From: Cryoendolithus antarcticus
Taxonomy: Eukaryota; Ascomycota; Dothideomycetes; Cladosporiales; Cladosporiaceae
Length of the DNA stretch: 64,000 bases
Direction of reading: 5' to 3'
NCBI GenBank assembly: GCA_002077065.1
Contig: NAJO01000075.1
Span: forward strand, 1-64,000
Shown here: positions 1,682-56,432 of the stretch, one piece after another
Numbering within the stretch: position 1 is the stretch's first letter
Layout: each line of letters opens with the position of its first letter
The notes under the pieces: generated by a model
What the model saw: only the letters and a program-made list of their open reading frames with translations
Databases searched by the model: none
What the model was told of the DNA's origin: nothing
Program-made: the position numbers and the translations under genes

Positions 1682-3825
1682 ATGGCCACCGTCGACGTTC
1701 TCGCCGTTCGAACCCTCGGTCTGTTGCCCACGGATTCACACTGGCCAGCGATCATCGCAGCGCTGCGCACCGCAGGCTTCACGGCGACTGTCGCGAATGC
1801 GTTTCACGCCAACTTCGCCCGAAATTGGGAACTAACCCGATCAACAGCTTACAGGATCATTTTCTTGGGATCACATGATTATGCTGCATGGGTGCACAGT
1901 CATCACCGTAACCCCACCGACAATGAGTTGGGACCACTCCTGGCTGCGAAAATGGCAGCTTGGAAGAACGCCAACAAGTGCACCACAACTATCATACGAA
2001 CGAGCTCCGATCACGGCCACGAGATTGGTGCCAGAGTTTCGGTAGATGCTTCCCTAATCGTTGCAGGGCACACATCTGCAGCTCAGGTATTCTATAGGCC
2101 GTTCACAGTCGCCGAAAGTAACGGCGTGGTCGACGATGATCCGAGTGGCGAGCCGCCTGCGGATCCCATCCTCCCTTTCAATTGTCAGGGTCTGTTTGGT
2201 GGTGTGGATGCTACTCAATCCTTTTCCAAAGGCGAGGTCATCCGTTCAAACCTCTTTGAGTTGCGCAGCCTCGAGCCGAAGGATTATCTGCATCAAGAGG
2301 TCCAGTGGGAGGGACAAGGCACCGTGAACAACAACGAAGACCATGTGGCTACGTTCGCAATACCCAGGTATCTTGACTTCGTCTGGGAGACGCGGGTTCA
2401 CGAAGAGACTGTAACCGGTGAGACGAAGAGAGAGTTCCAGTCGAACCTCAGCTCGAACATGGGCTTGGCCGGCTCAATCGATGGGTTCGGATTGGAGATG
2501 AATCACAGCTTTAACGAGACCGATTTCAGCGAGACTTGGAACAAGTACGCATCACTCTATCGATATCATCAGGTCTATACCCTCAAGCTCAACCAGACCG
2601 ATCCGGCTAAGCTGCATCTACACCTCACGGATCATGCTCTGGAGACGTTCGATGTTGGCACTCCGGCCAGCATTGTCGACACATTTGGTACGCACTTCAT
2701 GACGAAGGCTACCTTCGGCGGTCTCAAGCGGTGGTCGTCCACGCTCGACGTTCGCAATACGGATGTGTCGAAGAGCCTCGGCAGGAGTCTAGGTATCAAA
2801 GTCGCTGAGACCTCGCCAGCGCCCGCGGACAGCGCCGACAGCAATGGGCAGGGTGGCGGCAAAGCTCCTGACTCTGGTAGCATCAAGATCAGCGACCAGG
2901 ACTCGCTGACCCAAAAGATTTACAACTCGATGGAGAAGACGACTACCGACGTCGTCGGAGGTACTCCAGGCAGCAGTAGTGACGACTGGACTACGTCGCT
3001 CTACCGCAATCCAGCAGTGATCAACTTCACCCTCAGGAACATCGCAGATCTCGTCTTGAATCCTGACAAAGCCGCAGCCGTTCAGGCGGAGGTGGATGCC
3101 CGGATGAAAGCTGTAATTGTCAAAGTGAGCCACAAGGCTCAGATCATGTTCAACTCGTTCAGCAGTACCGAAGACGATCATGGAAGTGGTGGGCAAATGG
3201 GTAAGATCATCACTCTCCTCCAGTCCTCGCACCCCGTAAAGCGACTCTGAGGCTGACGTGCACAGACATCTCCTGCGCAGGCTTGAACCGCATCGACGGA
3301 TGGTTCAACATCGGCCACTACGCTATGGGCAGCCTTGGCTGGGACACATCTGGCTACCAGGGCCTCATGATCCGAGACATTCCCGACGCCAAAGTCCCTC
3401 TCATTGTCAAGGGACAAGGCACGAACCGGAACTGGGGCATGCGCAGTCCTCACCGCCTCGGCCTCTTCGAACTCTTAGGTCCTGCAGGATACGTGTCCCT
3501 CTCCGATATGTTCATTCGCGAAGAATGGATCGGCGTGGATCGATTCGAAGACCACGGAATGGTTCACCAGGACGAGCTTACTGTCGAAGGTGAGTGGGGC
3601 TCGAAAATTTGGGACGACTCTCACACGGGCTCGAACGACGTCGGCAGCGCATGGCGGGTAGAGGTCGGGGCTTTCGACGATGCCAAGTCCAAGATCATGA
3701 TCGTACCGGACGGTAAGGGTGCTGCATCCTTGTTCAAGTGTTTCAACACGCAAAACACTCCCACTGGCAAACCGAGGAAGTTGGATTTGTCCAAGTGCAA
3801 GATGTTGAAGAATCACTTTCTGTAG
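1682..3825 (+). CDS. MACPF-domain protein with Vps62-like C-terminal half
   Basis: This gene has two exons. Exon 1 runs 1682-3200; the donor is gtaag at 3201; the acceptor is at 3265 (after a gctgac branch site) or at 3280, and both keep frame. The protein is about 690 residues. Residues 335-347 carry the membrane-attack-complex/perforin signature (FGTHF followed by GG after six residues), embedded in a region with the expected spacing. The second exon (motifs such as GYVSLSDMFI and HQDELTVEG) resembles the beta-prism-like Vps62/DUF946 fold seen in fungal and plant proteins. MACPF proteins oligomerise on membranes and may form pores; function ranges from defence to development, so toxicity is not implied. 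I see no clear signal peptide. The ATG at 1682 sits in gcaATGg after a pyrimidine-rich leader. It ends in TAG. Confidence 0.82.
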
Positions 3826-35381: not shown

Positions 35382-36290
35382 ATGTTGTTCAACATCAACG
35401 TCACATGGAAGTGGCTCGCTATCTTGCACTTGCTCGTGTACCAAACGGTCGCCATTCCGACCACCGACCACCTGCTTAGTGGCTCTGAGTATCGGTGGGC
35501 AGCCAGCGAAGCTTATCGGCAACACTTTCGTGAGAAGGCAAGCGGGTCCTTGCACGCTCGACAGACATCCTCGGACCCTGTACCGGACCAAAGCACCAGT
35601 AACAGTACTTCGCAGTCCAACTCAACCTTCGAAAGCACTCCCTATAACCAGACTTTCACTCACGGCTTCCCGGTGACTCTGTATGTTGTTCCGCATGACG
35701 CCCGTTCGACAAGCTCAGCAATGGTAGTATGTGGAGGTATGCGAACGAACCTGCGTATGACAGGTGGACTTCGCAACAATTCTCGAAGTACAACATCACT
35801 ATCGCGCCAGTGATGATGACCTTCAGTGAGGATGGAACGCCACATATAGTCTCGAAACGAGGTTTCAAAGAGATCGGGTTTCGTATCAGTAATGGATGGG
35901 ACAGATTCGGCAGTTGGCTGAATAGGTAGGTTCTGATGCAACCCTTCGCTTTCTCGATATCACATGGAGGACGTCCGGGTGCGCAACGCTGACATTGAAT
36001 GCAGCATGTTTACCTGGAAGAACAGCGGCAAGCGCTTGAAGCGGAGGGCCGACATTATCGTCAAGCAGAGTGAGTTTCGCATCATTGAACAAGAGATCGT
36101 GGAGACTGTCGGAGGCGGCGCAACCGCTAGGATTCGCACAACACAGACAGAGCTCATCTATACGAAACGCGGTGCGAGGCGACTTGCCGATGTGGTCTCG
36201 GACTTTCGAGCCACGACTGGCGAAGGGCCTGTGCCTATCGAGCGTGTGCCACATCACGCTGGCGTATCTGACACGCGCACACCTAAAACT

Positions 36291-36455
36291 GGCGCACCCG
36301 ACACTGGCGCTCCCAACACTGGAACACCCAACACTGGCGCACCCGACACTGGCGCACCCGACACTGGCGCACCCAACAATGGAGCACCTCACCCAGGTGC
36401 ACCCAATGCTGGCACACCTAACACTGGCGCGCCTGACACTGGCATACCTGCTGAA
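36291..36455 (+). repeat. Coding 15-base minisatellite (GAPxT)
   Basis: Eleven in-frame copies of a 15-base unit, ggcgcacccgacact-like, encode Gly-Ala-Pro-Asp/Asn-Thr with minor changes (GTPNT, GAPNN, GAPHP, GIPAE). It lies between the N-terminal domain and the coiled coil of locus A; loci B and C lack it, and locus B instead has proline-rich segments. It probably forms an extended, glycosylatable linker. Confidence 0.9.
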
Positions 36456-37103
36456 GGCCCAAGTGAACTCGATACTGGATACTTCGCCGATAATGAAGGT
36501 TCTCAGGAGTCCCCAATCCGCTCAACTCAGCCGGATCAGCAACGGATCTACGAAGAGAAGCAAGCACAGCAGAAAGCAGCACATAGGCACGCAAAGAAGC
36601 TCAAGCATATCCATCAGAAAGAAGGCTCGACCAAGAAGTCTATCACGAAGAACGAGGAGCGTGTACAGCAGAAAGCCCAAGAGGAGAGTACAGCCACCGA
36701 GGATACTACCAAGGCTCAAACTGAGGATGATGCTAGGAGGCTTCGCGAGAAGGCCGGCAAGGCTTCCGCAGAAAAGACCCAAGTCCAACAAGAGAACACG
36801 GAGCTTAGGACGGACGAGGGCATGCTTGACGAAGCTCGCACAGATTTGAAGCAGGAAGGCGAGCAGTTGTCCGCAGAGCGCGGTGCGCTCAATGAAGCCC
36901 AAGAGTCGCTGGATACCGGCGATGTCGAAAAGAGCAAAGCCAAACTCGAAGTGGCACAAGACCATGGCAAGAGAGCTGCGCGCTACGCAGATGCATCGAC
37001 GCAGATTGTCGAGAAAGTCGATAGCCGCCAACAGAGCCGGAGACCTTCCATTGCCGAGAGTCCCAGCGATGTCGACAAGGGACCTACCGATGCCGATGAA
37101 TTG

Positions 37104-37247
37104 AAGAAGCAGGAAGACGAAGCGCGGCGAAAGCAAGACGAGGAGGCGCGGAAGAAGCAGGACAACGAGGCGCGGAAGAAGCAGGACGACGAGCCGCGGA
37201 AGAAGCAGGATGACGAGTCGCGCAAGAAGCAAGTTGACGCACAACGC
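37104..37247 (+). repeat. Coding 24-base repeat (KKQDDEAR)
   Basis: Six in-frame copies of an eight-residue unit (KKQEDEAR, RKQDEEAR, KKQDNEAR, KKQDDEPR, KKQDDESR, KKQVDAQR) inside the coiled-coil part of locus A. The unit is strongly charged and helical. Nearly identical middle copies point to recent expansion by slippage. Confidence 0.9.
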
Positions 37248-39289
37248 ACGGCGCAGGAAGAAGCAGAGCGCAACAAGTCAAAGCCTTCAGATCATCCTGA
37301 GGGGCCGGCTCCTTCTGCAGAGGAGCTTGCCAAGGCTCATCACGCAGTTTCGCGAGATGCACAATTGCCGCACGAGATCAAGGGAATGCAGAACATGATC
37401 GCAGCGGACGCTGCGAATGCCGAAGCCGCGCGTGCCCGGATCCCGGACTTGGAACGACAGGCTGCTGAACTCTAGGCCGAACATCACAGACTGCAACTGG
37501 AGTGGGATCGAGCACCAGATGATGTAGTAAAGGTGGAGACTGCAGTCGAGAAGCGCGCTGTCGGGGACAGATGGCGAGAGATGAAACAGAAGGTGGCGGC
37601 GGAGAAAGAACTCGTCGATCACCACTCGTTCTGGGATAAGGAACACCGGAAAGAACTTGCAGGATATCGGGAGGAAGCTGCAAGGGTGAAGACTGAATTA
37701 GAGAAGTTCAATGAGCGCACTTTGCGCACGGTGACGGACGCTCGCATGGCCTCGGCGCTGCCTTTGTCGACGGAGATTGCGGCAATCGAGGCTGAGTACG
37801 CGCCGAATTTACAGCGGGCGCGAGAGCTCTGTGAGCGGCTCTAGAATGGCATACATCCTGAGGCTGAGCCGCTCATGACAGCGGCAAACAATGGCGTGAT
37901 GAACTCAGAGCAATTCCAGCGTTTCGAGGCACTCAAAGCTGAGGAAGGTCGCATAATTAAGGAATCTCTTGGACTTGCTGAGGGACGCATAGGCAATTAT
38001 GCCAGGCGCGCCGACGCCCTTGCCAATTTGAACAAGGTCGACCCTGCGGCTCACGCGAACCATGTGCCTAACTTCATTCCGCCGGATGCGCCGGAAGGCA
38101 TGTTCCCAAAGCCATCAGAAGCAACTCCGCCCTGGACCTTATCCGACTTCAAGCCGCAGCAGACGAAACCAGGCGGGGGTAGTCTTGTGGAGATGGTAGA
38201 CGGGATGATGTTGATTACAGGAGAATCGAACCACTTCGATCGATTAGAAGTTCATAAAGGAAGCGAGGTGCAAAAACATCCACACTCACCTGGCAGTGCT
38301 CTCGACCCGGCGGGCGGCCCATCGGGCGGCGGTCGAGATCCGCCTACCGGCAAAGGCAAAGGCAAAGGAAAGGTTCCCAAAGTTAGAACGATGCCCGACA
38401 ATTTCTGGATGAAGAAACAAGGTGCAAGTCAGGAGCTCCTCGATCACCTCAGGGACGGTACCTACGACATTGACGTAGCGAGGACCCAGGATCAAGTTAA
38501 ACGGCGAATGAGGTGGGACCGGGGCTGGAATTCGGAACGCTACTCCGTGGAAACGTTTGAAGCCAACGGACGCTCCTACGTCAAAACTGGAGGGGGCCAT
38601 GTCTTCCAAGGCGGCGCAAGGTCACCGTCGTCGAAAGCTCCCAACTGGATCTTCCGTCTTGTCAAGGGTGGGCTTCCTGCAGGCGCCGTCGAGGTTCCTA
38701 TGGCTGGGGTGTTGGGCAAAGCTCTAACGTCTCAAGGTTTCGCCGCTACACGGGCCATAGAAATACCAGCCGCTAAGATCGCTGTAGCGATTGTGACTGG
38801 GATACTCGTTGTAGTGCAGGTTTACTCTCCTGTGAAGGACATTCAAGAAGGTCACTACGGCAAGGCAGCCTTGGACGCCGTGCTAGCTGCCATCAGTTTC
38901 TACAGTTGGCAGGCCGGCTTGCTCATTCTGGCCATTCAAGGTATGATCTGGACTGGGACAGCAATTGCCAAGAAGATCAGGGAGCATCATTGCCACGACG
39001 CACTGAATGATGAATACAAGGCCGCCTTCTTCAAGGAATGTGGACACAGACCCGAGCACGTACCAACCCGCAAGAAGGTGAGCCGTACCTGAAGTTTCTA
39101 CACGCCGCTTCACTACTGACATCATTCCAGATGTGGTCTGTGAAGGCTTTTCAGTGTCACCTCAACAAGAAGAAAGACTACGAACGCGCGGATCTAGTGC
39201 ACGGCAAAGGATGGGACAGACTCCCACAGATACCGGAGTATGCGGCATCGCACCCGATACAGCATGGGAAGAAGCCGTGTCAGGAGTGA

Positions 39290-39805
39290 TTGCTCATGTG
39301 CGTCCACGCTAGCTTGAGCGTTCAGCGATCGGAACGGCTGGCTGACCTGCGACAGCGCTTCATACTCGCGGCTCAAGCGGTCCACTGGGTGAAAGGCAGA
39401 TCTCACACGATCGGGCGGTGAGCCATTTCGTCGAGCACGCTAATGCTGAGGCTCTTTTACCAGTCTCGGTTTCGCGATTCTGACGCCGTGCGTCCGGGAC
39501 AGGCCTGAGGCTGCTCATTGCGCGGCAGCCCAAGTGACCTGTGTTCGAACGACTGTGACGGGCATATTGTGGACCAAAGACATGATCACTACTGACTGAC
39601 GGGCATCGCAATTCGCATTGAATGGGACTCATCGCACGGGCTGTAGATCTGATATGAAGCGAAATTGGCATCTCGCAAAGCGGATGTTGATTCGGAAAGC
39701 CAATGGACTCTCCGTTCACGTCGTGCTCCAATGCTGCAGCTCGGTGCCAAATAATTGTGTGTTACCCATATAGCAAGCTTTCCCAGACTGCACATCCCGT
39801 CGTGC
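39290..39805. other. Spacer between convergent loci A and B
   Basis: Loci A (+) and B (-) end toward each other with 516 bases between the stop codons. I recognise nothing in it. Confidence 0.4.
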
Positions 39806-42800
39806 CTATATAATGAAATGGAAAGATCCGTCTGCGGTGATCAAGGTCACATTCATCGGCTGATACTCCGAATCCAGCGCTCGTTTCGCGTACCACCCGA
39901 AATCGCACGGCTTCTCTCCTGGGGCAATGTAATGCGTATTGACGAACCTATGGTCATCTGGAAGGTCCTTTGCACCTTTCTCGTTGTTGAGCTTCAACTT
40001 GTGGTAGTCTTTTTCGCTCCACAACTTGTCGCATTTGAAAGCCTCTGCTTTCCACATTTTCAGACGAGTCGGCACCGATGCGGGCGGGCGGCCGCAGATC
40101 CTCTGGAACTCTGTCTTATAGTCTTTGTTCAAGTGTTTATGGCATTTGTGCTCCATCACTTTGGCCTTGATTGTGTGGTACATGAGGTCTCCACCCATCC
40201 AAGCAATGCCGATGGCCATTCCGATAGGTCCTGCGATGAGCTCGAATGCGCCTCTCGCCATCACTCCCACTGTTACGCCAACACCGCGGGCTGCAGCACT
40301 GGCGAGGATCTCAGCGGTGGCCGCAGCAGTGGTTTTGCCAAGGACAATGACGCCGACTTCACCTGCGGCCTCAGCAGCAACGGCGCCCACGACTTCAGTG
40401 CCGATAGTGCCTGCGACATCAGCGCCTACAGCACCGGCGACCCTGCCAGCGGCGGCAGCTGCCTCAGCAGCCTCGGCGGTAATGGCTTGAGCGGGTTTGA
40501 TGATAGTTCGTCCGACTCTAACAGCGTTCTTGAGGCCTTCACCAACAGCGCCGACTAGCTTATTGCTTGCTTGGGCAGTCAAACGCCAACCTTCAAGAAC
40601 GCCTTGAGCGCCTGCATTACCGGTGGTCTTGAGCACTTGACTTGCAGGCTTCATGATTTCGGTGATAGGCTTGGCAGCCGCTTCAGTCATCTTGCCGCCC
40701 TTAAATAAATCAACAGCCGCTTCATCAGCTGCTCCGTCGAGCGGTGTGATTTCCGACCAGCCGCCTCTGCTGCCTTTTTTGGCGATCGCATCCGGTGTGT
40801 TGACGCGGTGTACCATCTCACCAGGTTTCCCCGCGTCAGGCTGCGCATAGTCCACCGAGGCACCGGTTGACTGTGCAGTGGGAGAGAAGTTCGGCTTTGC
40901 AACCCTGAACAGATCCTCTGCGGCTGGTTGGATAGCCTCCCCCGCTTCAAATGGAATAGCACCTTTCGCTTGTTTGACATCGAAGAGCTCAAGTTTCTCC
41001 ATCGCAGCTGTTCTTTCATTTTGCAACTCGGCGTACTTGACAAAATCCGGAGCAAGCCGCCCCTGCTCGGCGTTGTAGGCAGCTTCGATGTTCTTGATTT
41101 CAGCTTGATACCGTGCCAATTGCTTCTCAGACGCTGCAATGCGTGAAGGTTTGTCGGCCGCGTTCCCCTCTTTAAGACTGTTAAGTTTAGCACTCTCAAC
41201 CCTGTGAGCGTTCCGGGCGCTGTCAAGATCCAGGGCACCTTGGTCCTTCCAGGTGTTAGTAAAAGATTCGATACGCTCTTGTATAGCCCGAAGCTCCGTG
41301 TCCATGCCCTTGATGTCCTTGACGAGATTCGAGACCGCCTTCTCGAGATGGGCTGAGTCCCCTGACACGGACCGTAGAGAGTCAATGTTGCTCCTTGTTC
41401 TACTCTGGAAGTTCTTCCAGAATTCCGCGGCGCTTGCTTCATTCGAAACGCTTGACTCTGCAGTCCTGACTTTGTCAATCGCCTTCTCGACATTTGCCTT
41501 GAGAGACCTGATCTTCTGTTGATGTGGCAGCCTATCTCGAGATGCGGCTTGCTTTAGGAGTTCCTCCTCGCGGGCTAACTGCGTGTTGGCTCCCTCGAGA
41601 TCATGCTTCGCAGCCGCTAAGACGTTACGTTCAACAATCACGTTCGCGTCGTGCTGTGCTACGTTCTTCGCTGCTTCTACAATGCCCTTCTCTGCCCCCT
41701 CGAGAGCCTCTACTTGCGTTTGAGAGAGAAAGTTCTTCTCTGGCACCACCGGCGCAACTTGGGGCGGTTTTGGCGCAGTTGGCGCATTTGGCTCCAGTTG
41801 TGGAGGCTTAGGGGGCTTAGCAGGTGGCTGCTTCGGACCCTTTGGCGGATCGACTGGTGGTTGCTTCGGACCTTCTGGCGGATCGACGGGTGGCTGCTTC
41901 GCAACCTTTGGCGATTCAGCTGGTGGACCGCTGGGCTCATTGCCCGGCTTCGCTGGCGGCTCTTGCGGAGTCTTCGGCGGCTCGACAGGCGGATCCTGAG
42001 CGGGCGGTTTCGATGTCCGACCTTTACTACTAGAGTGCGGCACTCGTGGTGACTCGCCCGGTGTCCCAGGAGGAGTCTCACTAATCGCCTTTGCAACTGC
42101 GTCGGCAAATTCGTCGGCCTGGATTCTATTGATGATATCATCCACGTGGCCAGCCATTTCGTCAACAATCCGACCTGGATTGGGTGTTGCGTCTCTGAGA
42201 GCCTGGACACCAGCTCTCAACCTGCCCTGCACACCACGGATCTGACGAGCTCGAGCAATCTCATGTTCAGCGAATTCTTCGATGCCAGCCACATTCCGTT
42301 TAGCTTCGTCAAGACCGTCCCTTATAGCATTGAGATCGGCCTGGTGTGTCGCTTTGCTGGCACTGGGAGCGTTCTTGAGCAACTCGGAAGCCTGCGTCTC
42401 AGCTTCCGTCATGTCCCGAACGTAGTTTCGCGCTTCTTGAAATCTGTCACCGCGATTCCACCTTGCAAAGTCTTCGTGGTCCAAAGCATTCCTTTCCGCA
42501 GCGCTCATGGCATATTCGGCCCTTTCTATAGCCTGAACCTGCTCAGTGAGTAAGTGGCCGACCGGCTGTGCTGGAGCCGGTGGGTCGCCCGAACGGACTG
42601 GCATTTCGCCATTGCCATTCCCATTGCGCGGTGGTCCGTCTTGGGTAGGGCTGTCTGGCTGCGATGGAGGTGGCGGATGGGCAGGGGATTGGTTTGGTGG
42701 CGATTGAGGGATCTCAGGTTGAGCGGGCGGTGACTGAGGACCTTCAGGCTGGCTAGCCAGCGGCTGAGGGGCATCGGGTTGACCAGGCGGTGGACGATCG

Positions 42801-44043
42801 ATAGGACGCTGAGGTCTCTGTGGCTCAGGGTTCTTCTCGTGCCATTCCTTATTCCTAGAATCTCTCAGCCGTCGTTGTGTCGCTTCCCTGTCCTTTGCTG
42901 CCTCTTTCTGCAAACGCCACTCCTCCTTCCTCAACTCCGCTTTGGCCTTGAGGGAAGACCGCACTTTTCCCTGCTCCTTGGGTGAGGTCGATTTGCGTGT
43001 GGCCGGTTCGAATTCCTCGACGGAGCCAGAGCTGTCAGTGCGGATTGGTCGACTTTGCACATGACGAGGTCTCTGGCCGATTTTAGAGAGCCCTTCGGGG
43101 AGCTTGCGTCGTGCTTGTTCTGATAGGAGACGCTCATCTGACTCGGTCGTGCTCCATTCGAGGTGGCTGAAATCCTGGTGTTCGTATACTTCAGAGACTA
43201 CCTTGCTGTGATCAAGTCAGTATTTTGGATCTAACTATGAGTTTCGCACTGTCTGTGGCATAGGAGACACTCAATTGCATCGAACTGCAAGCGTAAATAA
43301 GACAACTCTGGTCCCTGAGCCAGACCTGCAAAGACTGGACAGACAGCCCACAGATCGTGGCTTCACATCTGCCACTCCATCGCAATCCCGTTGCTCCAGT
43401 GGCCACAGTGTCGTGACCGCAGAAATGAACCCAGGCTATCAGAGAAGCGAAGGTGTTGCAGGTTTGCATGAAGGGGTGGGGGGGTTGCAACAACTTACGG
43501 ACTGAGACCGAAAATGTATTCGATGAATGATCTGGCTCCATTGCCGACCCGTTTCCAGCCACGAACAAGTAGGTCCACGAAGTTGCCGAAGTCTCTCTCC
43601 ACGAGATGTCCAGGACCGTTGGCACTACTGTTCAAGGTACCGTAAACATACGGAATAACAGTGATGTTGTGGTCGCTAAGAGTGTCTTGTGCCCATCCGG
43701 TCTCTGGCGATGAGTCGTTGGCGGCGCGAAACTCGCGCCCGGATGTGACAGCCTGGAGAGTTGCATTATCCGGAAAGATGTAGACCCAGAGTACAACGAT
43801 AGAGGAGACCTCGGGCGAATCAGTGACATTGCTAGCAAGGCCAAAATCGTTTCGTGGCTGTAGTATAGCCTCTATCGGCGCCTTTCGGGCACCAGGCTTC
43901 TGGCCAGCATGCTCCCCTAATGAATCGTGGCGGAACGCGTGTGTAATCACGTCGTTCTCGGGATCAACGATTCCATTTTCGATGCGAGGTAACGCAAGTG
44001 CCTCGGAGATGAGTAGACATATGAACTTTAGCCACTTGACCAT
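39806..44043 (-). CDS. Locus B: secreted proline-rich coiled-coil/4-Cys-tail protein
   Basis: Two exons, 44043-43499 and 43205-39806, around a 293-base intron (gtaagt...cacag), encode 1314 residues with no break. In order: signal peptide (KWLKFICLLISEALA); N-terminal domain ending near residue 182 (IVVLWVYIFPDNA; HNITVIPYVYGT; RGWKRVGNGARSF); charged region; two proline-rich segments (about 305-390 and 575-685, the second built of KQPPVDPPKGP-like units); coiled coil (about 690-930); an Ala/Gly-rich hydrophobic stretch of about 140 residues; and a tail with Cys1203, 1219, 1240, 1282 (HKCHKHLNKDYKTEF; KMWKAEAFKC; GEKPC). I do not recognise the family. Secretion followed by contact of the hydrophobic part with a membrane is an inference from layout. 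The stop is TAG. Confidence 0.8.
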
Positions 44044-45864
44044 CGTCGAGACTGAGATAAATGGGCCTTGGATTAAATCACGGCGGAAGTTCTTCAGTCA
44101 GTCCTCGTGGCGAATTGGCGAGAATGAGGGCTCAGTCGAATACGACATCGAGTTTCGACGAGGAGACACACTTGGAAGAAATAGGAAACAGCCACCGAGA
44201 GGTGGTCGAGCGAGAGGAAACTGCGTGCACAAGGAGTGGAGACGATGAAGTCTCGTTCAACTTACCATCCACAACACTATCATTTGCTGGCAGCCATAGG
44301 TGCTCGACCAAAGCACCACATTAGCTTTTCTGTAAGGCAGACCTGCGGCTCCAGTAGATGAGGTTCAAGCACCCACCTTTCCTGTCAAGTACTGCCAATC
44401 AGCCTCGTTGAAGGTAAATCGACGTAGCGCGACCCAGCGCGTGGGTACCAAGACAACGCGTTCGTTGAACGGTATGCCGTAGAGTAAAGGTGCCGGAGGG
44501 TCGTAATGACCTTGCCGGCAGTCAAGCCGACTCTGTGGAAGGAAGCAGCTCTGCATAGCGGCAATCGAAGTGTCCCCGTTCCGCACTGTCTTTCTCATAC
44601 TCCAATCGGACTCGACCTGACAAGGTGCCAGACGATGGATGCCACTCGGTCCAGAGCGTGGTGCGCGGATTCTGCATGATGACAGCCGCAGACATAGCTT
44701 CGTCTGCTGATTGTCAATCCGAGGCAGTGGGTCAATGTAGGTTTTGTAGTTTTTGATAGAGTCGAGGTGCTTGTCGAGTGGACTAATATGAGCTCGACTG
44801 TTGAGGCTGCGAAGCGGGCCGGCGGTGCCAACTCTTGCCGAGCCTCGAAGTCAACACTGGGTACTTTTGCTGACCAGTCCAGTCGCGCGCAGCAGTGTGC
44901 GTCGTCGACGCCGGTCATCGCAATACATCTCATCACCGTCGACTGAAAGTACGAAGGGTGATGCGTTTCTCTTGGCGCTTCGGTTTGAGGTGCATACCAA
45001 TGACATGATCTGGGCTTTTGCGAAGCTCAGAAGGTCTTACAAGAGATACATTCAAGCCACGCTTCACAGCGGCAGCGACCTAGGTTACAAGACAAGTGGA
45101 GAAACCAAGACTCTGGAATATGGAAAATGGAAGATGTGGGAGACGCCACACAAGTCCCAGATGCATGATGCTTGGGAAGCTGAACACCATGGGCCACGGA
45201 CTTGACTATCGTGACTTGTCTCGAACGTATGTCTCGCACCAACGGCATTGCAGATTCTCTCGTCTCTCCGGCCTAGTCACGCTAATTCCTTCTCTCCGAC
45301 GGGCTACGTCGTGCCCACCTATCGCTTCGGCTCAACATTTGACCCTGCCCTGATGCATTTGTTCAGCTTGTCCCCACGACCTGCGCCCCTAAAATGACCA
45401 CACCGATGGTATTCCAGAGGCTCATCCGGATTCTCGACGCCATGGACTCGGTACAAAGCCATATGCTTACAGTCAGTCATGTCAAGGGGGCCATTGGACT
45501 GCTATCGGCGATGCACTATGTGGTGACCTTAGGGAATTGCAGTACTAGTGTATTACTGACTGTGTCTTGAGCGATTGAGGATACACGATCTATCTATTGG
45601 TTGTAAGTCAAAGCTCAAGTCGTTCAACATGCCCCATCGAAATCGTCGCGGGCGCGCATCTCGAAATGCCAAACTTTCTTCAATGGTTCTTCGCACTATA
45701 CATTCCACAAAAGCTAGCATCCCTTATGGCCACTCAACACCTTCTGTCGATTCCTGATCTTCAACTTCCATCGCTTCCTGGGTACATGATATCGATCGTC
45801 GCCGTTCACCGATGATTGAGTATTGGCTCGCCACGCTGATATCAAAATCGCGTCCATAGCCACG
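44044..45864. other. Intergenic between loci B and C, with a coding-like relic
   Basis: Divergent loci B and C are 1.8 kb apart. On the minus strand at about 44680-44365 two adjoining frames look protein-like: TTLWTEWHPSSGTLSGRVR, then, one frame over, GIPFNERVVLVPTRWVALRR and FNEADWQYLTGK followed by a gtgggt donor. A 68-base intron (gtatga...ccacag) may separate them, although the phase is uncertain. I do not recognise it; it could be a small spliced gene or a remnant. The rest is featureless. Confidence 0.35.
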
Positions 45865-48717
45865 ATGCGGTCAAGGATCACATTGCTCGTGATTTTGCGG
45901 GTGATCTGCACAACCGCTGCCCTACCCACCCTCGAGCAATCGCCCGTTGTCATCGACAGAGACAACAGTACGAGGAACACCGAGCTCCAAGCGAGCAATC
46001 ACAGCAGCGCCCTCGAAGAGCTCACAGATGCATCCGGCATCACCCACGTCATCTTTGTCAACTACTATAGTTTTGAGGATCAGGGCGCCCTTACCAATGT
46101 CACGGGCGGCAAAGTCCATCGCAAGTCGAACGACACAACCGTATGGTCGCCAGAGGCTCTTGGTGCACACAATCCAACAGTATACCATCTCCTCTTGGTC
46201 TTGACGCAAGATGGCCGAGGCAATGGTTTATTGAGTGCAAGAGGTGCGAAGGGCGGATGGAAGCTGTTTTTGAGCAACACATGGCGTCGCTTTAAGAACT
46301 TGTTACGCCTCAAGGGCAGGTGAGTCAATCAGTATTCTGTCGGCCGCCGCAGCGTAATTCGATTCGCATGTGCGCGTTGATGCAGTGCTAACTTTCTTGC
46401 CCCTAGGAAAGGAATCCTCGAGGTTGCCGGAGAGACTACGCCGACGCTCGATCTTGCTGGAATTGGCGAACCGAGCCCGAGGGAATTGGGGGCACTGCAG
46501 GATATCTTCGGGATTGATGAACCGAGTCTTAGGGAACTAGGCTTTCTGGAAAGGAACGGGTTACCACTAAAGAAGTCTGGATTGCCATTGAAGAGGCTTC
46601 CGACGATGTTCGAGGAGACCGGACAGCTTCCGATTTCCGTGCAGCAGAAGGACTTTTCATCAAGCGACTTTGCGCCCCCCGAAGGCCGCTATGACGCCGA
46701 GGCAGAGGCATGGAAAGCAAAGTCGTGGGAGAGAGAGGAGCTGCATGACGCGCTTGGTGATGCCCGTCGCGAATTGGAATCCATCAAGAAACAGACTAGG
46801 CTACGCAACATTCGGATGAGGAAGGCAATCCTCGAGCTGCCGGGATGGGAAAAGACCCTTTCGAGGCAAGAGGCATACATGTCTCACTTGAAGGAAACGA
46901 ATGCAGCACAGTGGGAGCTGGAGCTCGAAACTCTGGAGAAGGAACGGGTGATGCTCGAGACTGGGGTAAAGGACAGGCAACTTGTTGCTAGTGCATTCCA
47001 GGCGCGCAACGAAATGGACGTTCGCAATACGAGATTTCTAAAGACTGATGAAGAGCGCATGGCTGCTCGGCTGAAAAATATCGAGGTGAATATCGAAGTG
47101 TATTCGGACAAGCCGAAAAAAACAAGGCTTGGCGCACAGGAAGCAGAGTTACAAAATGCTCTGGAGCAAAGTAAGCAGTTAGACACACTGCTTGAGAACG
47201 AACTATCCCCGGAATTGGATGCACTCGAGCGGGCGCAAGGAGCTACTGGCAGTGCGACAGCTGAGCAGCTCCAGCGTCTTGAACAAGTGAAGACTGAGAT
47301 GAGCGAGGTGTTATCTCGAAACAAGCAGCTGCTGAACGACATCGATCGTTTACATGGCCTTCGTCAGAATTCAGTGAGTAGATTGCTGGCGGCCGATCCT
47401 ACAGAGACAAGTTTCTGGTCCAGTGCGTACAAAGCGGTCGAACATGGACCGCCTCCAGCGATCGAACCTGAAGTCGCGAAAATGTCTCCACTTAAGAAGC
47501 TGAACTGGTTGCTAGACGAGCGTACTCAGGAGCAGAAAGGTGCATCCTTGTTCCTGCAGGATGGCAAAGGCGGACCTTTCTACACGAACGAGGGCGCGGC
47601 AAAGATGCACGCCGGCACTCACTACGAGGTGCCACCTGAATTCAAGACACCTTCTGTCAGTAATCTCGACGGTGCAGCTGATGCCGTCGATGGCGCGGTC
47701 AATCTTTTCGAGCACGGGGCTTTGACAGCGGCAGGTAAAGCGCCTATAACGCAATTACCAAAAGAACTCTTAGCCGGCTATCGTAAAGGTTCGCTGGCTT
47801 CAACCACGTGGATCCACAAGGGCGACAAGTACATCCTGGACAAAGCGGGCAGAGGATTCAAAGCGATCGCGAGCGGGAGTAAGCAGGTACTGCAGGGCAT
47901 CAAGGGTGGTATACTTGAAGGCGCGATCGAGATCAGTGATAGCATTGGCGCTCTAGCTCCCGTCGCCACGACCGAGGGTGCCGAAGCGGCGACAATGGCC
48001 ATCGTTGAGGGCGCAGAAGTCGCTCCTATCGGCATCTCCGCGATGGAGGGTACGCTAGGTCTTGCAGAAGGCTCACTGGCCACTACAGAAAGTGCGCTGG
48101 CCGCTCTCCGACTTGCAGAGTCTGCCATCGCCGTGACTGCTGAGGGTATCATCAGAACCGGAGTCGTCGAAGCGGCTGTGCTCACAGGTCGTCTTCTTGG
48201 CGGCCTCAACGCAGCAATGTCCTTCTCCGGACCAATTGGCTGGACTGTACAGGCGTCCTTCATCATTAGCGACATTGCTTTCCGTGCCATACGACAAGCC
48301 AAAAAAGAGCACAAATGCCACAAGCATCTGAACAAAGACTACAAAACTGAGTTCGAGAACAAATGCCACCGACCACCCGCGTCAGTGCTGACGAGGACAA
48401 AAATGTGGAAGACAATCGCCTTCAAATGCGAAAACCTGCATACCGAACACGACTATCATGTGCAGAAGCTGCACGATCCCAAGGGTGCGGAAGAGCTACA
48501 AGACGATCCGCATTTCTATAACACGCACTTCATACCGAAAGGGACAACGCCGTGCGAATTCTCCTTCTGGGACGGGACGCCGGTGATGAAGCGAGACTTG
48601 AGCTCGCTAGCCCAAGACTGGGATACTGGCTACTCGCCAGAGGAGCACGGCGGAGAAGACCGAGAGAGGCCACAGACCTCCCCCGTGCATCCCTTTGGTC
48701 GTCCAATGGTGTTCTAG
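45865..48717 (+). CDS. Locus C: secreted coiled-coil/4-Cys-tail protein
   Basis: Exons 45865-46319 and 46407-48717 around an 87-base intron (gtgagt, gctaac branch, ccctag) encode 921 uninterrupted residues. A signal peptide (RITLLVILRVICTTAA) and an N-terminal domain with potential N-glycosylation sites are ended by the intron in phase 2, as in loci A and B. Then follow a segment of EPSLRELGFL-like short repeats, a coiled coil (about residues 225-480), a DGAADAVDGAVNLF motif shared with locus B (DGAADEAAVDLF), and an Ala/Gly-rich hydrophobic stretch (about 620-780). The tail has Cys789, 805, 826 and 868 (HKCHKHLNKDYKTEF; TKMWKTIAFKC) and a polar extension. Locus A has an intron inside the tail that B and C lack. 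The family is unknown to me. The start at 45865 is preferred over one 14 codons upstream because it opens the signal peptide. Confidence 0.8.
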
Positions 48718-49203
48718 GGTCTTTGCGAGGGCTGCGCTTCGATAATGGCAAGCGGGAGTGCAAGGGCACGAGGTTCGTGGAGTGGATGGGAGCGCGTCTT
48801 CTCGTTATGTGTCATGATAGTAGGATATGTACAAACAGCGGTACTCTCGTGCGGAGCTGGGATGTAAGAAGGCTGAACCGGTGGCGGAGTACCTGATACA
48901 GCAGCAGATTTTGGGCATGAGGTTAGATCACTATCGATGGGAAAGACGGGTCAAAAGATTATGTTTGTCATGGCCATGCAAGCTGCAGTCATGAGCTTCG
49001 ATGTCTGGCAACTGTCTTCACCGCCTCTCGTCCTCCGCCTGCGGCCGTGTGCCGAGCCCAGGTACTGCATCAATACTCTCATCGTGACCGCCGAATGTTC
49101 GTACATGACTTTTGTCCCTGTCAGCTCGCTGTCGTAGCCCCATGAACGCCAGGTACTGCTCTCTTCGGACTTTTGTCATCCCGCCACAGCCCCGGACAGC
49201 TCT
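48718..49203. other. Spacer between locus C and RNase H1 (convergent)
   Basis: The 486 bases between the convergent stops contain no gene or repeat that I can recognise. Confidence 0.4.
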
Positions 49204-50562
49204 CTAAGCAGTCCCGTTCACTTCCTGCATCACATCTGCCGTCTCTACGGTACCGCCGGGCACCACAACCGCAGCATCTCTCGCTTCTCTCGCCTCTCTG
49301 GCAGCCGCGACAGCCAAGCGATCCGCCTCTACATTGCCCTCACTGCCCGCGTGTCCCCTGATCCACTCGAACTTCACAGCCGCAGGCCCACGTTCCCAGT
49401 GTCCGCCCTCAGCCAATTCGTCTTCTTCAGCGTCGGTGCGATGGCGATTGGTTCTGAACCTCTGCTCGAGCACATCCACGATCTTGATGATGAGGTCCTT
49501 GTTCTCTACCGCGCGGCCCTGGGCGTTGATATACCCATTCGAGCGCCACTTCTGGAACCAAATAGTCACACAGTTGATGGCGTAATTGCTGTCTGAGACG
49601 ATGATGATGCGGCGGTCTTGTGGAGCGAGTTCGAGGGCGCGGAAGATGGCGCTGAGCTCAGCGCGCTGGTTGGTCTGACGGGAGCCAGTGAGGGCTGAGC
49701 CTTCGTTGCGCTTGTCGCCGGGTCCGAAGTAGATGCCTATGCCGCCTATGGCATGTGCTTGGCCGTTTGCGAGGGCTGAGCCGTCTGTGTAGATCTTGAT
49801 CCAGGAGTCTCTTGCGGGACGGACAACTTGTGGCTTGAGGAGAGCGCGTTCGGTGGCGGTCTTGTAGCGGACGCCATTGGTGATGGAATCGAGTGTAATG
49901 TTCGGGTCGAAGCCGTCCTCTGTCGAGATTGGGAGTGGAGCGGAGCCAGGGGAGTATGCCGACGGGTCGAGAGGGGTGGGAGAGATCTCTGTCTTCACGC
50001 CACTGTATGGCTTGAGGCGGATCGTTGTCTTGGGCTTCTTTGCCGAAGGTCCTTCAAGCGACTCAACACTTTCAAGCGCGATGTCGGACATCGGGTAGCT
50101 CATGTTCGTACCATCCGCCACCCACTGCTCAGCTTCTCCTTTCGTTTTGAACGCCTTATGTTTGGGCGCCTTCCAGCCCGTGATCTGCTCGAGGACATCA
50201 CTCCAGCTGGTGTACACTCCCGGATTACGCCCACTCCTAACTCCGTAATATTTTGAGACCTTCCCTTCCCCACCAGCACTCTGCTGGTTGTGCAAGAAGC
50301 TCTCAGCTTCCGTGAGGGATGTGAAGGACTTGAACACGGCTTTCGGGAAGCCGCGCACCTGGTCGAGGCAGTCGGTCCAGGTATGGTAGATGCCGGGCGC
50401 CTTGCCCGTACGGACAGCGTAGAACTTTGGAGCGGGTGTCTTGGCATCGCGCTTTCGCTTTGTGCCAGCGCTGCCTATGGTGGAGGGAGGACTGGGAGGA
50501 TGTGCGATGGCGTTGTTGACGGAAGTGAAGCCATTGGTAGGTACGTCCATCTCTGCAGCCAT
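49204..50562 (-). CDS. Ribonuclease H1 with two hybrid-binding domains
   Basis: A single exon; the first ATG of the frame is at 50562 (452 residues). A KRKR basic cluster near residue 35 may direct nuclear import. Two caulimovirus-VI/RHBD modules follow (FYAVRTGKAPGIYHTWTDC and YYGVRSGRNPGVYTSWSDV), each binding RNA-DNA hybrids. The catalytic domain keeps all key residues: Asp in IYTDGSA, Glu in NQRAELSAIF, Asp in IVSDSNYAI, His in IRGHAGSEGN and Asp in VEADRLA. The enzyme cuts the RNA strand of hybrids during replication and R-loop removal. The frame stays open for about 100 codons upstream of the ATG and encodes an Arg-rich, acid-poor stretch next to it, so a mitochondrial form from a non-AUG start or an unseen exon is possible. 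Confidence 0.93.
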   Translation of the reverse strand: MAAEMDVPTNGFTSVNNAIAHPPSPPSTIGSAGTKRKRDAKTPAPKFYAVRTGKAPGIYHTWTDCLDQVRGFPKAVFKSFTSLTEAESFLHNQQSAGGEGKVSKYYGVRSGRNPGVYTSWSDVLEQITGWKAPKHKAFKTKGEAEQWVADGTNMSYPMSDIALESVESLEGPSAKKPKTTIRLKPYSGVKTEISPTPLDPSAYSPGSAPLPISTEDGFDPNITLDSITNGVRYKTATERALLKPQVVRPARDSWIKIYTDGSALANGQAHAIGGIGIYFGPGDKRNEGSALTGSRQTNQRAELSAIFRALELAPQDRRIIIVSDSNYAINCVTIWFQKWRSNGYINAQGRAVENKDLIIKIVDVLEQRFRTNRHRTDAEEDELAEGGHWERGPAAVKFEWIRGHAGSEGNVEADRLAVAAAREAREARDAAVVVPGGTVETADVMQEVNGTA

Positions 50563-51299
50563 CTCGATAGGCCGTATGGATAACGCGCGAAGCAAGTGGG
50601 AGGTATGACTGATGTCCGGCAGACCTCGCGCAAGTGGTGTAAGGGGGACACCTCTCCGTCTGGTCAGTCGTGTGTGAGGCTGTCGAGCTTTCGCAGCTGC
50701 CACCCGGCGAAGAAGGTGCGAGAGCCGCGGCAGATTGAGGAAGGTGGAGGGGGGTGGTGTGAGTTTTGACTTTCGTGCGGTGTTAGCGAGGTGTTGAGAA
50801 CAGGGAGTAAGATTGACCGCGAAGGAGAATTTTCGAGTAGCAAGGAGGTGTAGTGAGGGAGGGTGAAGTGAATTGCGGGAAAAGTGTGCAGAGAGGGGGT
50901 GGGATGGGAGGGGGTCGAGCTTTACTGGACCACCGCCACGGCCCCATCCGTCACGCCCGAGACCTGCCTGCTAGATGTGCCCACCTCACATCCCTGCCGT
51001 GCATGGGTGGGGGAGCAATGTTCCGGCACATTGGGTACGGTACTGATTGCTTGTCTCTATGAAGGAGAGTTGATCAGGATGAAGCTGAGGTCGCAGATCG
51101 CCACTCGCAAGACCTTGGCTTGTTGACGACATCTGACGCTGTGACACCGCCGTTGATCATCGCAGAGACATTTTGCTGCCCATATTTCTTACCTACCACC
51201 TTGCAACTCCTCCATATCTAGTAGGCTGCCTCGGCGAATCTTTGCCTCCAAGCTCTTGCAATGATGCCCCCACCCTGAACGCTACTAGCCTCACCGACC
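50563..51299. promoter_or_regulatory. Divergent promoter, RNase H1 / DUF202 gene
   Basis: 737 bases lie between the divergent start codons. The part next to RNase H1 is an in-frame, presequence-like open stretch; the remainder has no recognisable feature. Confidence 0.4.
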
Positions 51300-51959
51300 A
51301 TGTTCGAAGTAGGACCCCTACACCCCATGGATCCCATCTCAGTCCACCTGACCCATCTCCAGACCCGGCATGCCCAACAACGCTACACACTGCGGACTCA
51401 TCGCGCCCGCTCGGTGATTCTTACACCCTCGGAGCTTGTAGAGATTCGCGCTGCCCAACGGACTTTTGAAGGAGCATATATGCGCACGTCGCTCGGTCAA
51501 TTCAGCTTCGCTTTGATCGTGCTCAAAATCTTCACGCGTGAGTTCTACAGCATCGGTATGTTTTTGTCCTGTGAGCTTCAGATCATCGACGACATGGTGG
51601 CATGGGGTGATAGAGAAAGCGGGGAGGGTGTTCAGTCGGCGAGGTGAAGAGCGTGACAGGCAATGCCCTCCAGCACTGACAAGCTATGACAGGCGCACTC
51701 TTCGCAGTCTACGGCGCTGGTGTTCTCGGCGTAAGTGCCTTTCGGCGCATGCAAGGGAACCGCCAATTCTTCAGCGAAGTGGGTGATGATGGGCTGAGCA
51801 GGAAACGGTACGATGCTTCATCCGCAGGTGGTACAGGTACGGCAACGACTGACTCTTGGCAGCTTCCGGACTAGTGGTAATGTTGTCGTTGTCCTCACAA
51901 GCCTGAGTGTTGCCGCCTACATCACACTACTGGTACTGACGCTAAGACTGGAGGCTTGA
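51300..51959 (+). CDS. DUF202 small three-helix membrane protein
   Basis: Three exons (51300-51555, 51693-51807, 51863-51959) encode 155 residues; introns are 137 and 55 bases. Three transmembrane helices are visible: TSLGQFSFALIVLKIF, ALFAVYGAGVLGVSAF and NVVVVLTSLSVAAYITLLVL. ELVEIRAAQRTFEGAYMRTS ahead of the first helix and FRTSGN ahead of the third are typical of fungal DUF202 proteins, which are related to a domain of the yeast VTC complex. Function is unknown. Reading straight through the second intron would give a shorter protein lacking the third helix; the spliced form is preferred because it restores that helix and has a gactgac branch site. The start could instead be the Met nine codons later. 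Confidence 0.82.
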
Positions 51960-53139
51960 GCGCAGCCGTTCGAGTGGGACATTTGTTGAAGCCAGAAGAT
52001 CTCCATATGGACTCGTGGCCATACCCTACTCATCTGAAAGACCTCACTATCACCCGCGAACGATACGAAGTATCTCGCGAGCTCGGCTTCAAGTTCCCGT
52101 CGCGAAACATAGCTCAACCCTTGTCTGTCAAGTGCTGAGCCTGTTCGACCACGGTTCTTGCATCAACATTCATGCGTGATGCACTCGACCGCAAGACAGG
52201 CAAGCATAGCAATCGTCCTTCGCCAGGTGTGGATTGCTTGACGCGAAAGGCGACAAGAGCATCCAACGCCGATGCAAGCATAAAGTCGATTGAACAGAGA
52301 AAGTGTTGCACACAGATACACCTTGGAGGCACGTGTCAACAACTTCACTTCTTCTCTCTCGAACAAGGAACACTCTCGTGACAAGCCTTCACCCTTCCAG
52401 ATGGTGTCTCACATGTCCAGACAAGACACTCAAGAGGTAACATTTAGTACATCGGTGTTATCACGAGCGTGCTTCTGACTTGCGAGCATTTCTTGAGACG
52501 CGAGCTTAGAGACTCTTCTTGACACTCTCCTATATATACTCCATACAATCTTGGTTAGCTTCGGTGATTTACGATACTGCCTAGAGTTTCCCGTGATCTC
52601 TGGTACATACATCCATAGCCCAGCAACCCAGTGTCGGGCATACACGAATACCTATACAATGGTTAGAGCACCACCGGTCAGCGCTACCTTTCGAAGTACT
52701 GGGCGTCAAGCAGTGGTACGCCAAAATCGGCTTTGTTTTATGCAAGCTGGGACCCCTTCGCGCATGTATCGAATTCATTACCACACCCAACCCGGCCCGC
52801 AAAGCCACATTGAGCGGTAATTCTGTCCGTTGCGACGACCGACGCACAAAGGAAATCCTGTTTGGCGCCGAAGCGTCACGATCTGAGCGCTTCGGACACC
52901 GCTCGAGTGCTGAACCGTGTGTCTGTAGTTCCTGACTCAACTGGACCCCTTGCAGTATGACCATGACACACGCACCGACCGCAAGACTTTGACCTTTGTC
53001 TCAAGCGTACCCTTTTCGGTCGTCGATGTCTGCAGTTCCCTTCTTTGGCCGTATACTACATCTCCGCAAGATGCTGACATCGTGATAGGAGACATTACCA
53101 TCTGGCCTGAATGGCCACGCCATAGCTTGCTCTGCCCAA
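51960..53139. other. Intergenic, no gene recognised
   Basis: A plus frame right after the DUF202 stop (51956-52138) reads on by chance, overlapping the stop in another frame. Nothing else in 1.2 kb is recognisable. Confidence 0.4.
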
Positions 53140-53781
53140 ATGCCTTTCGAGGATCTGCATCCCGAGATCCGGGAAAAGATCTACGCCTACGCCTTTTCCG
53201 AATCCGCTACGGACATCGCCATTGGAAAAGAGAATATCTCCGCCCAGCGATTGTCCTCGCTAAACAAAGGGAAGGTCTGCCGTGGCGATACGGCCCTTTT
53301 CCTAATCAATCGCTTGGTGTACTCGGAAACGAAGCACCCTCTCTACGACAATCGCGAGTTCGTCTTTGCCTCTATGCAAGATTTCAACCGCTGGATCCCC
53401 CACACGGCCGGGAATGTGCAGTTCATTCAGCACCTCACGATTGGTAGGAGCACCCCGGGACTCCTCAGGCAGTGCTATGAGCTCCTCCAGCGAGCCACGA
53501 GTCTCAAGTCATTCCAGGTAACCTTCAGCTATGCGATCACGGGTACGTTGAAGAAGCCCCTCGACGAGCACTAGGAAGTTGCAAAGCCGTACTTCGTTGG
53601 GGATGGTGTGAGTCGGGAGGAGGGAAAGAGGCGAGTGGACTTGGTGACATTCGGGATCGGAAGCTCGCAGAAGAGCGTGTTGAACGACGACGAAACTTTC
53701 TTGAAGGAGCTTACTGTAGATCACCAGGCGACTTGCCACAAGTGGTTCAAGATCTGGGTGGAGGAGTATAGAGATGATTGA
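53140..53781 (+). CDS. F-box/LPPEIR-type protein interrupted by in-frame TAG
   Basis: The frame starts MPFEDLHPEIREKIYAYAF, like the many fungal proteins with an L-x-PEIR-x-xIY motif at the start of an F-box-like domain, and continues with LINRLVYSETKHPLYDNREFVF and a GRSTPGLLRQCYELLQRATS region. At codon 145 (53572-53574) there is a TAG; the same frame then runs for another 69 codons (EVAKPYFVGDG ... HKWFKIWVEEYRDD) to a TGA at 53779. Both parts look like one protein of 213 residues. Without read-through the product is 144 residues. F-box-like proteins of this type may recruit substrates to SCF ubiquitin ligases, but no partner is known here. Confidence 0.5.
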
Positions 53782-56432
53782 TGAACCCTCGTGGGTGAAG
53801 GGTAACGGCGCAAACGTTGTGAGAGGCAGTTGGTAGGCCAGAGTATGATTATGCTGCGACAGATTAGAACCATGACTCCTGAACATGATCATCGATACAA
53901 TCATGTTCGCGTAAAACATTCGCTGTATATGCCTGCGGTATTCCTACATGATCTGACTTCTGTTGCTAAAAGCGCAAGAGCCCGCCTTCGCCAGTCAGCG
54001 ACAAGTTTTGGACTTGGACACAACATACAATAGAGGTAAGATAATCCTATGGCGTCGAAAGATGCAAGATCAACACTACTCGGTCGATTTCGATAGCAGC
54101 CTGTCTACCCGAAAGCGCGTTGTGCATTCGCATCTTCCGCCTCCGTGTACCGAGACTCATGCTGCCATAGCCCTGAAGACCAGTACGCGCCCACTCACCA
54201 CCACACGAGACCCAGTAGTCGCCGGCCCATTCCAAGCGAGCATGTTTTGAACTGCTCGCATGCCGACATCGGCACTTCGAAAGCTGCTCTGGTTGGGACA
54301 GCCACTGCGACGTTTGCCGGATGCGCGGTATGCACGGCTGCAGGCACGGGGCAGCTACGCAAGTAATACGCGCATCGTCTGCTAGGCAGGTTGCAGCGAA
54401 GAGGAAGATCGATGCTTGAGGTCGATCGATAGTGGTTGCACATCGCACTCTACGGCGGTATAGCCGTTGACAGAAATCAAGATATCGACGAGCGGGGTGA
54501 CGTCTCCACCCACTACAGTATCAACGTCCCAAACCGTGTCGCATTCGGCAAGAATTGCTCCTACCAAAGCAATCCTCAAAGCTCTCCCTGACAGCGGCAC
54601 ACCCACTCGGCGCGTACCGAAGTCATCCTACCCACGCTCCAGGGTCGACCCAAGGAAAAAGATGGATTGACTTTCGGGCATTTGCTGTTGCAGTGGCGTT
54701 AGAACTCGCAAGGTCTGGCCACGTTTTGCTGTGCTGCTGCGGAGACGCTGACTGTGTTTCTGCAAAGCCGTTGGAAAGACACGTGAAGTAGATGGGTACG
54801 TTCGCTGAATGCGACAAGTCGCAGGTTCGGGCGCGGAGGAGGCTGCAAGGGCTGGGGTGTGGAAGCGGGGATCATCCCGATCGCGGAGTCGGGGAATGCC
54901 CTGCGATGGGGGTGGTGGACTGGTGCGACACGCTCGTAGGGGAATCTTGGGCTTGATGGCGGTCTATCAAGCCCCGGGGGGGGATGCTCCGTCTGTTGCA
55001 ATGTGGATGACTCGTTGATCATTCTATGCGAAAGAAGAGTGCACCGTGAGAGCTTCATCGTCTCCATCGGCGTGGGCTCGAAGAAATCCCCGATTCGTCA
55101 ATCGCTTACGCGCAAAACAGCTCGGTACGGCACGTTGACGCTTTTGCTCGGTGCGACCTACCGATAGAGCTCAGACCAGCCGCGATAAGACACAGCGGCA
55201 TGGATCTTGGGAATGACATGGGAATACTAGGCAATAAACTGCTTGGGAAGGAATACGTTGCGACCGGGCCTTCGGAATCAGCGCGGCACGCACGAAACAT
55301 TGCATCGTAGTGGGCGATACTGTGCTTGCAGATTGTGGAGATGATAATAGCAATACAGGTACCGCAGATTGCAGATGTGTTGGGCAGCGATGCTAGTGCA
55401 AGTTGCGGCGGCGGTCGCGTTTCGCGGAGCAAGATGTGTGGAAAGGCTTCCAAGCGAGCCTGTGGTGGGACCGTTTGGGCGCTCGACGGGCACCGGGAAG
55501 GGGAGGGATGTGACGTGCTCCGAGCGCTTTGCTTGAGTGTGGAGCGTCGATGAGCTCGCTTAGAGCACAGTGATGCTGTCTGTAGCTTTGGCGCGCGCTC
55601 ATAGGAGTGTCGAGACGCAGCGACTTGCAAAGAACGGATGGGTGGACATTACATTTTCTTGACCTTGGTCATGTTCAGCGATACATCAAGATAATGGTCA
55701 ACTGCTGACCTCTGTTTCCCAACGTCATGGAACTGGATATTGCACTAGCGTGAAATCTGACTAGCTCGCAATGTTGGCTGGTAAGCTAAGAACGGGAGCT
55801 CGGTAAGGGCTCGTCCCACACACTCTGAACTCTGGCGGCCAACTGCCTCAACTTCGCCTCGTCTCGCACATCTCTCTTGCGTCGACCACGACAGTATCGC
55901 CATTCGGATATTCCTTGGTGAGGGGAGTACTGGAGTGGCGGTCTTGTGGATTTTCCCACAGCGCCAGGACATTCTAGGAACATCGAAGAGCTGCCTCCAT
56001 CCCGCGCGTGTGGTCTCGATCCAGGACCCGAATTGCGACGAAGCTCATCCCGTGGACAGGACACCAACTGATTCTTACAGCACGCGCTTGTACCAGAGGT
56101 GTGTACGCCAGTGATATCACTGGAATCCAGCCTGCAAGTTGTGAGTTCTAGCCCTCGGAAGTAACATCGCCCCTTGCCTCGCGTATTTCCTGTGCGTTGG
56201 ATCATTCCGATATACCAGTCAAGTGGTACCTTCATCCCCGAACCAACACATCGGACTACCTACGCCTCGATCTCACAGTCGACCATCGGTGTTCTTGATG
56301 CCGTCTGCGTGTTGTGTCTCGACGCCACGCTGACTATTCCCAACGAGGTGGTGCTAACAGTTACTTGCAGTGTACCTTCGGAGTCGCTGTTCGTACAAAT
56401 CTTCAGTCTGCTCTGGATACTGGATCATAGCC
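53782..56432. other. Long upstream region of veA, no gene recognised
   Basis: I find no credible gene in 2.65 kb; several open frames of 60-170 codons exist on both strands but lack recognisable motifs. Part of this is probably the promoter and leader of veA, a gene with complex upstream control in Aspergillus. Confidence 0.4.

Follow-up and report, generated by a model that had tools for sequence, protein, structure and literature searches.

Genes A, B, and C

The stretch of DNA analyzed here (the window; 64,000 nucleotides) is part of a contig of 124,851 bases (C123) in the 47.0-Mb assembly of Cryoendolithus antarcticus. It carries three genes, A, B, and C, which lie where a preliminary description had placed them and have the common ordered layout it gave them: an exon for a signal peptide and N-terminal domain (N-domain), then a rod, a hydrophobic stretch, and a cysteine tail.

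Gene A, exon 1: 35382..35925, + strand; signal peptide and N-domain, frame broken inside the exon (from reading of the sequence, donor GTAGGT)
Gene A, exon 2: 36005..39077, + strand; Pro/Thr repeats, charged rod, hydrophobic stretch, first half of the Cys tail (from reading frames and splice sites)
Gene A, exon 3: 39131..39289, + strand; second half of the four-Cys tail and stop codon (from splice sites and the tail match)
Gene B, exon 1: 43499..44043, - strand; signal peptide and N-domain enriched in N-glycosylation sequons (model identical to P0001)
Gene B, exon 2: 39806..43205, - strand; rod, Ala/Gly-rich hydrophobic stretch, four-Cys tail, KR site, C-terminal peptide
End of B: 39809..40264, - strand; last hydrophobic residues, four-Cys tail (Cys 1203, 1219, 1240, and 1282 of P0001), C-terminal peptide
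Gene C, exon 1: 45865..46319, + strand; signal peptide and N-domain
Gene C, exon 2: 46407..48717, + strand; rod, weakly hydrophobic Ala/Gly-rich stretch, four-Cys tail (Cys 789, 805, 826, and 868), KR site

Gene A is broken. Its first exon is matched in two pieces, in different frames, by the N-domain exon of its counterpart A' (described below), and its second contains two in-frame TAG codons (37473-37475 and 37842-37844). The tail, found at 39107-39283 by a search of the organism's own genome, is split across two exons. Gene B is open and encodes 1314 amino acids, identical to the public protein B0A48_17904 (P0001). Gene C is also open; its product of 921 amino acids corresponds to B0A48_17905. 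The values of 921 and 1314 residues, previously offered as the range of lengths of the middle region, are in fact the lengths of the whole C and B proteins. The choice of acceptor for exon 2 of C is backed by a protein of Rachicladosporium sp. CCFEE 5018 (P0004), while the deposited model of C (P0003) uses a different acceptor, leaving out about 20 residues. The gene models of P0003 and P0004 both leave out coding stretches, and P0004, because its model omits part of the tail, displays only three of the tail cysteines. Between the divergent genes B and C lies an open frame of 161 amino acids (44368-44850, - strand) with no Pfam match.

The homeologous region

The genome of C. antarcticus is duplicated. 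We take Rachicladosporium antarcticum to be the earlier name of this fungus. Passages of PMC5502844 give the assembly of R. antarcticum CCFEE 5527 as 47.4 Mb with 18,781 genes, and passages of PMC7325674 describe massive gene duplication in Rachicladosporium. In a search of the same genome, the flanks of the window matched the first 60 kb of another contig (C81) at about 77-87% DNA identity, and for this reason we take the C81 region as the homeologous copy of the window. There the counterparts A', B', and C' are found. B' is open, with 1373 amino acids, and A' (1180 amino acids) is probably open, given one inferred splice acceptor. C' has a frameshift early in exon 2, as assembled. A frame similar to the 161-amino-acid frame of the window stands at the matching place in C81.

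Conserved ends and a variable middle

By sequence comparison, both ends are common to B, C, and A' beyond chance. The tails match one another by blastp with E values of 1.9e-48 (B and C), 1.8e-25 (B and A'), and 1.4e-19 (C and A'), and the N-domains with values of 2.1e-8, 3.3e-9, and 2.3e-4, respectively. The notion of conserved ends, a variable middle, and a tail of the disulfide type is upheld.

The tail comprises 85 residues with four cysteines, spaced 16-21-41 in A and A' and 16-21-42 in B, B', C, and C'; a four-cysteine tail had been described for A, B, and C. In B, B', C, and A', these four are the only cysteines after the signal peptide, and the same four are present in P0002, a partial protein. 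About 770-1250 residues ahead of the tail in these four full-length proteins lack cysteine altogether, where the frequency in nine flanking open reading frames (0.97%; 54/5559) would predict about 7-12. The cysteine-free rod is limited to the open copies, since A and C', both broken, contain one additional cysteine each in that region. A conserved, even-numbered set of cysteines that is restricted to the tail is therefore found in B, B', C, A', and P0002, with A and C' having one extra each.

The 130 residues ahead of the tail are richer in Ala and Gly than the rod (0.23-0.41 vs 0.16-0.19) and poorer in charge (0.15-0.17 vs 0.26-0.36). Peak Kyte-Doolittle values within the hydrophobic stretch are 2.49 (A'), 1.78 (B), 1.63 (B'), and 1.45 (C), so that the term "membrane-seeking", applied to it earlier, suits A' well and B and B' moderately but finds little support in C. 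The signal peptides, judged by eye and hydropathy alone, have peaks of 1.27-2.01, two of the four at or above 1.5. The rods are charged or proline-rich. Heptad-like periodicity (p<=0.02) was seen in 11 windows of B, 5 of B', and 4 each of C and A', which supports a coiled coil in parts of the rods but not in the remainder, although the whole middle had been called one. Predicted structures, with mean pLDDT of 45 and 31 (the latter for a model of the tail), were too poor for use.

N-glycosylation sequons are concentrated in the N-domain in B (5 vs 1.3 in shuffled sequences, p 0.005) and B' (4 vs 1.0, p 0.0055), and the shuffle test found no excess outside the N-domain in these two proteins. The enrichment is not significant by the same test in C (p 0.064) or A' (p 0.23). 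In B, B', and C the tail is directly followed by a KR site; behind the tail of A' there is no dibasic site.

One N-domain, two C-termini

The family had been thought to comprise three loci; nine were found in this genome. A search with the tail found six (A-C and A'-C') and no more at E<=1, and searches with the N-domain found three others:

D: C81, near 250 kb (spanning 250-254 kb)
E: C81, 246-249 kb, adjoining D
D': C83, near 302 kb (spanning 298-303 kb)

Matches to D and D' are weak with the N-domain of B as query (E 0.016-0.018) and clear with those of C, A', and D. Two more matches, with E values of 0.85 and 0.93, were taken as chance. In E the N-domain is reduced to roughly its first 115 residues.

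The C-terminus of D, D', and E, read partly by eye, is made up of a hydrophobic segment and a conserved stretch, helices that are cationic and amphipathic (and in E repeated), KR, and a short end. That of D has no similarity to the profile of the A-C tail region (hhalign probability 0.2%). As assembled and read straight through, the frames of D, D', and E are interrupted by stops or shifts, and from order, strand, and spacing we infer that N-domain and C-terminus form one gene in each case. The chief point beyond the preliminary description is that one N-domain appears to be joined to two unrelated C-termini. Since the second cluster pairs the N-domain with an unrelated C-terminus, the family looks modular. 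The earlier suggestion of polymorphic proteins gains strength in that the same N-terminal module is found with different C-terminal modules, provided that D, D', and E are continuous. Birth-and-death evolution, also suggested, is supported as well: the frames of five of the nine copies, namely A, C', D, D', and E, are broken as assembled, and those of B and B', of C, and probably of A' are open.

Perhaps the proteins are cell-surface rods or adhesins, the N-domain displayed by a rod that spans the melanised wall, with the hydrophobic stretch and disulfide tail anchoring it in membrane or wall. Their role would be in attachment to rock, to algae, or to other cells; their variation would reflect drift or immune-like pressure. 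Rods that are proline-rich or partly heptad-like, a hydrophobic segment close to the C-terminus, and glycosylation sequons at the N-terminal end would all suit such a role. The C-terminal ends suit it less well: no GPI-type ending was seen by eye, the tail is followed by a KR site in B, B', and C, and the C-terminus of D and E appears by eye to be cationic and amphipathic. Moreover, no known adhesin domain is among the Pfam matches. We consider the adhesin reading rather unlikely.

Divergence between homeologs

Silent divergence (pS) between homeologs was measured in windows of 120 codons, with 45 windows from nine flanking genes as control; these gave 0.18-0.67, with a median of 0.37. Exon 1 of B and B' lies within that range (0.32 and 0.56), and exon 2 is higher, at 0.59-0.79 over nine windows, six of which exceed the flanking maximum. 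Misalignment inflates the values for the rod of B, where the alignment is poor, but the end of B aligns well, with amino acid identities of 80% and 75%, and yet shows pS of 0.73 and 0.80. Over all of B and B', dN/dS is 0.27, with dS near saturation. Silent divergence between A and A' is also high, but the alignment is poor (27-53% amino acid identity). Gene C gave 0.12 in exon 1 and 0.28, 0.15, 0.17, 0.25, 0.45, and 0.57 in exon 2, and the N-domain exon of D and D' gave 0.14.

B is not alone in its divergence. A tenth flanking gene, which encodes a MACPF domain (perforin-like) at 1613-3250 of the window, gave 0.76, 0.68, and 0.76 in its alignable windows, equal to B, and when it is added to the control, just one of the nine windows of B exon 2 exceeds the flanking maximum. 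High silent divergence is therefore not peculiar to the A-E family. A locally raised mutation rate would not readily account for pS that is high in B but low in the adjacent C. The pattern is more simply read as the outcome of older variants, of exchange with a diverged copy, and of conversion in C.

Genes B and C are inverted in place as a pair (39804-48711 of the window vs 37406-46428 of C81), the ends of the inversion falling within a few bases of the stop codons of B and C. A neighboring block is also inverted in place (49145-53782 vs 46639-51192). Within the latter, a gene at 53089-53571 has a sub-threshold match to DUF7730 and a pS of 0.45 relative to its homeolog.

These observations bring to mind an allorecognition cluster, in which divergent alleles of B (and perhaps A) are maintained by balancing selection and compared at cell contact. 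B has silent divergence above most flanking windows while its tail remains 79-80% identical in amino acid sequence to that of B'; the divergence of A, poorly aligned as it is, is high too; and both the low, conversion-like divergence of C and an inversion that ends at both stop codons might be expected of such a cluster. However, the MACPF gene is equally diverged, the N-domain exon of D and D' is little diverged, and there are only two haplotypes, which may be those of the parents of a hybrid. Pfam matches include no known allorecognition domain. An allorecognition cluster is on these grounds distinctly unlikely.

Searches for relatives

Protein searches, which see relatives that share exact words and fall within a range of lengths, found the family in three fungi only, C. 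antarcticus included. P0004, from Rachicladosporium sp. CCFEE 5018, best matches C (88.5%), and P0002, from Oleoguttula sp. CCFEE 5521 (408 amino acids), best matches exon 2 of C' (81.6%). No relative was found in Pfam, NCBIfam, PDB sequences, bacterial and archaeal genomes, or viral contigs. Pfam and PDB sequences gave no homology to toxins or pore-formers, and no colicin model is among the Pfam matches to the C-terminal regions. No immunity partner gene was recognized. We found no description of the A-E family in the literature, where, being nameless, it could not be sought by name; the portions consulted of PMC11412873 name no such family, and those of PMC11664114 contain no matching mention.

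So narrow a distribution, together with broken frames in five of nine copies, might mean that these are ordinary orphan genes of the lineage, without a special function and in the course of decay. Such genes would hardly be expected to stay open over 1314 and 1373 codons with the dN/dS ratio seen in B and B' (given a dS near saturation), nor to retain the observed identity in the tail, and we regard simple decay of orphans as very improbable.

B bears the name "Enterotoxin" in UniRef, which raises the idea that the family consists of degenerate relatives of fungal heat-labile-enterotoxin-like proteins (PF01375) whose ADP-ribosyltransferase domain was lost or eroded. DcEntA-C of Drechmeria coniospora, as presented in passages of PMC8263066, have further long and variable regions in addition to their signal peptide and enterotoxin domain, and one of the three proteins has a Rad50-like region. 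The PF01375 model itself lends the label no support: hmmscan, to which a heavily eroded domain would be invisible, found no match in seven N-domain exons at E<=10 or, at E<=1, in the exons and proteins scanned, and this descent seems to us a long shot. A genome-wide search with PF01375 also gave no match, but neither did it in any of 14 control genomes.

A possible function

We favor, tentatively and with a probability of about 0.4, the reading that A-E are a lineage-specific, modular family of secreted proteins of the conflict type, toxin-like or recognition-like. Led into the secretory pathway by its signal peptide, the protein would be glycosylated there in the N-domain, and the four cysteines of its tail would form two disulfides. 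Trimming would then follow at dibasic sites, among them the KR that B, B', and C have behind the tail. The N-domain and variable rod would carry and display the C-terminal module: in A-C, the hydrophobic stretch with its disulfide-clamped tail, and in D and E, the hydrophobic segment with its cationic amphipathic helices. Finally, the module would act on or in the membrane of another cell, whether competitor, grazer, or non-self fungus. The evolution of the family looks like that of conflict genes, and secretion and action on membranes are plausible; "toxin" is a hypothetical label. A bolder version is unlikely: that the family is a eukaryotic counterpart of polymorphic toxins or allorecognition systems, with a secreted N-terminal module and interchangeable membrane-active C-terminal modules, its divergent variants predating the two subgenomes, maintained under balancing selection, and reshuffled through conversion and inversion.

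If the conflict-type reading is true, a fungus from inside Antarctic rock possesses very long secreted modular proteins of this kind without a recognizable domain. The duplicated genome provides a natural control, the paired regions revealing which parts have diverged beyond their surroundings and which have been homogenised. Also, the 85-residue four-cysteine tail and the C-terminus of D and E are small enough for direct expression and assay.

Comparison with known systems

Bacterial polymorphic toxins combine one N-terminal module with different C-terminal modules through variable linkers, and decayed copies lie nearby. A-E are like them in all these respects; the differences are introns and a signal peptide of eukaryotic type, the lack of any known domain for trafficking or toxicity, and the lack of an identified immunity partner. 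With pore-forming colicins, the analogy drawn in the preliminary description, A-C share a rod-like middle that adjoins a hydrophobic segment, and they differ in lacking a Pfam match, in their putative eukaryotic secretion, and in a cysteine tail that comes after this segment; no test spoke for the analogy. The killer toxins of fungi that Kex2 processes offer a parallel in their secretory route and in dibasic sites, which are plausible near the C-terminus of the present proteins (the cleavage being putative), although the latter are far longer and have no sequence match to them. Finally, A-E differ from DcEntA-C and from BbLTA of Beauveria bassiana in having no match to PF01375, the comparison being one of descriptions rather than sequences. 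According to the portions consulted of PMC8263066 and PMC10556748, however, these proteins, like A-E, have in most cases a signal peptide and have long variable auxiliary regions, and DcEntA ends in a lineage-specific C-terminal domain, comparable to what is found in A-E.
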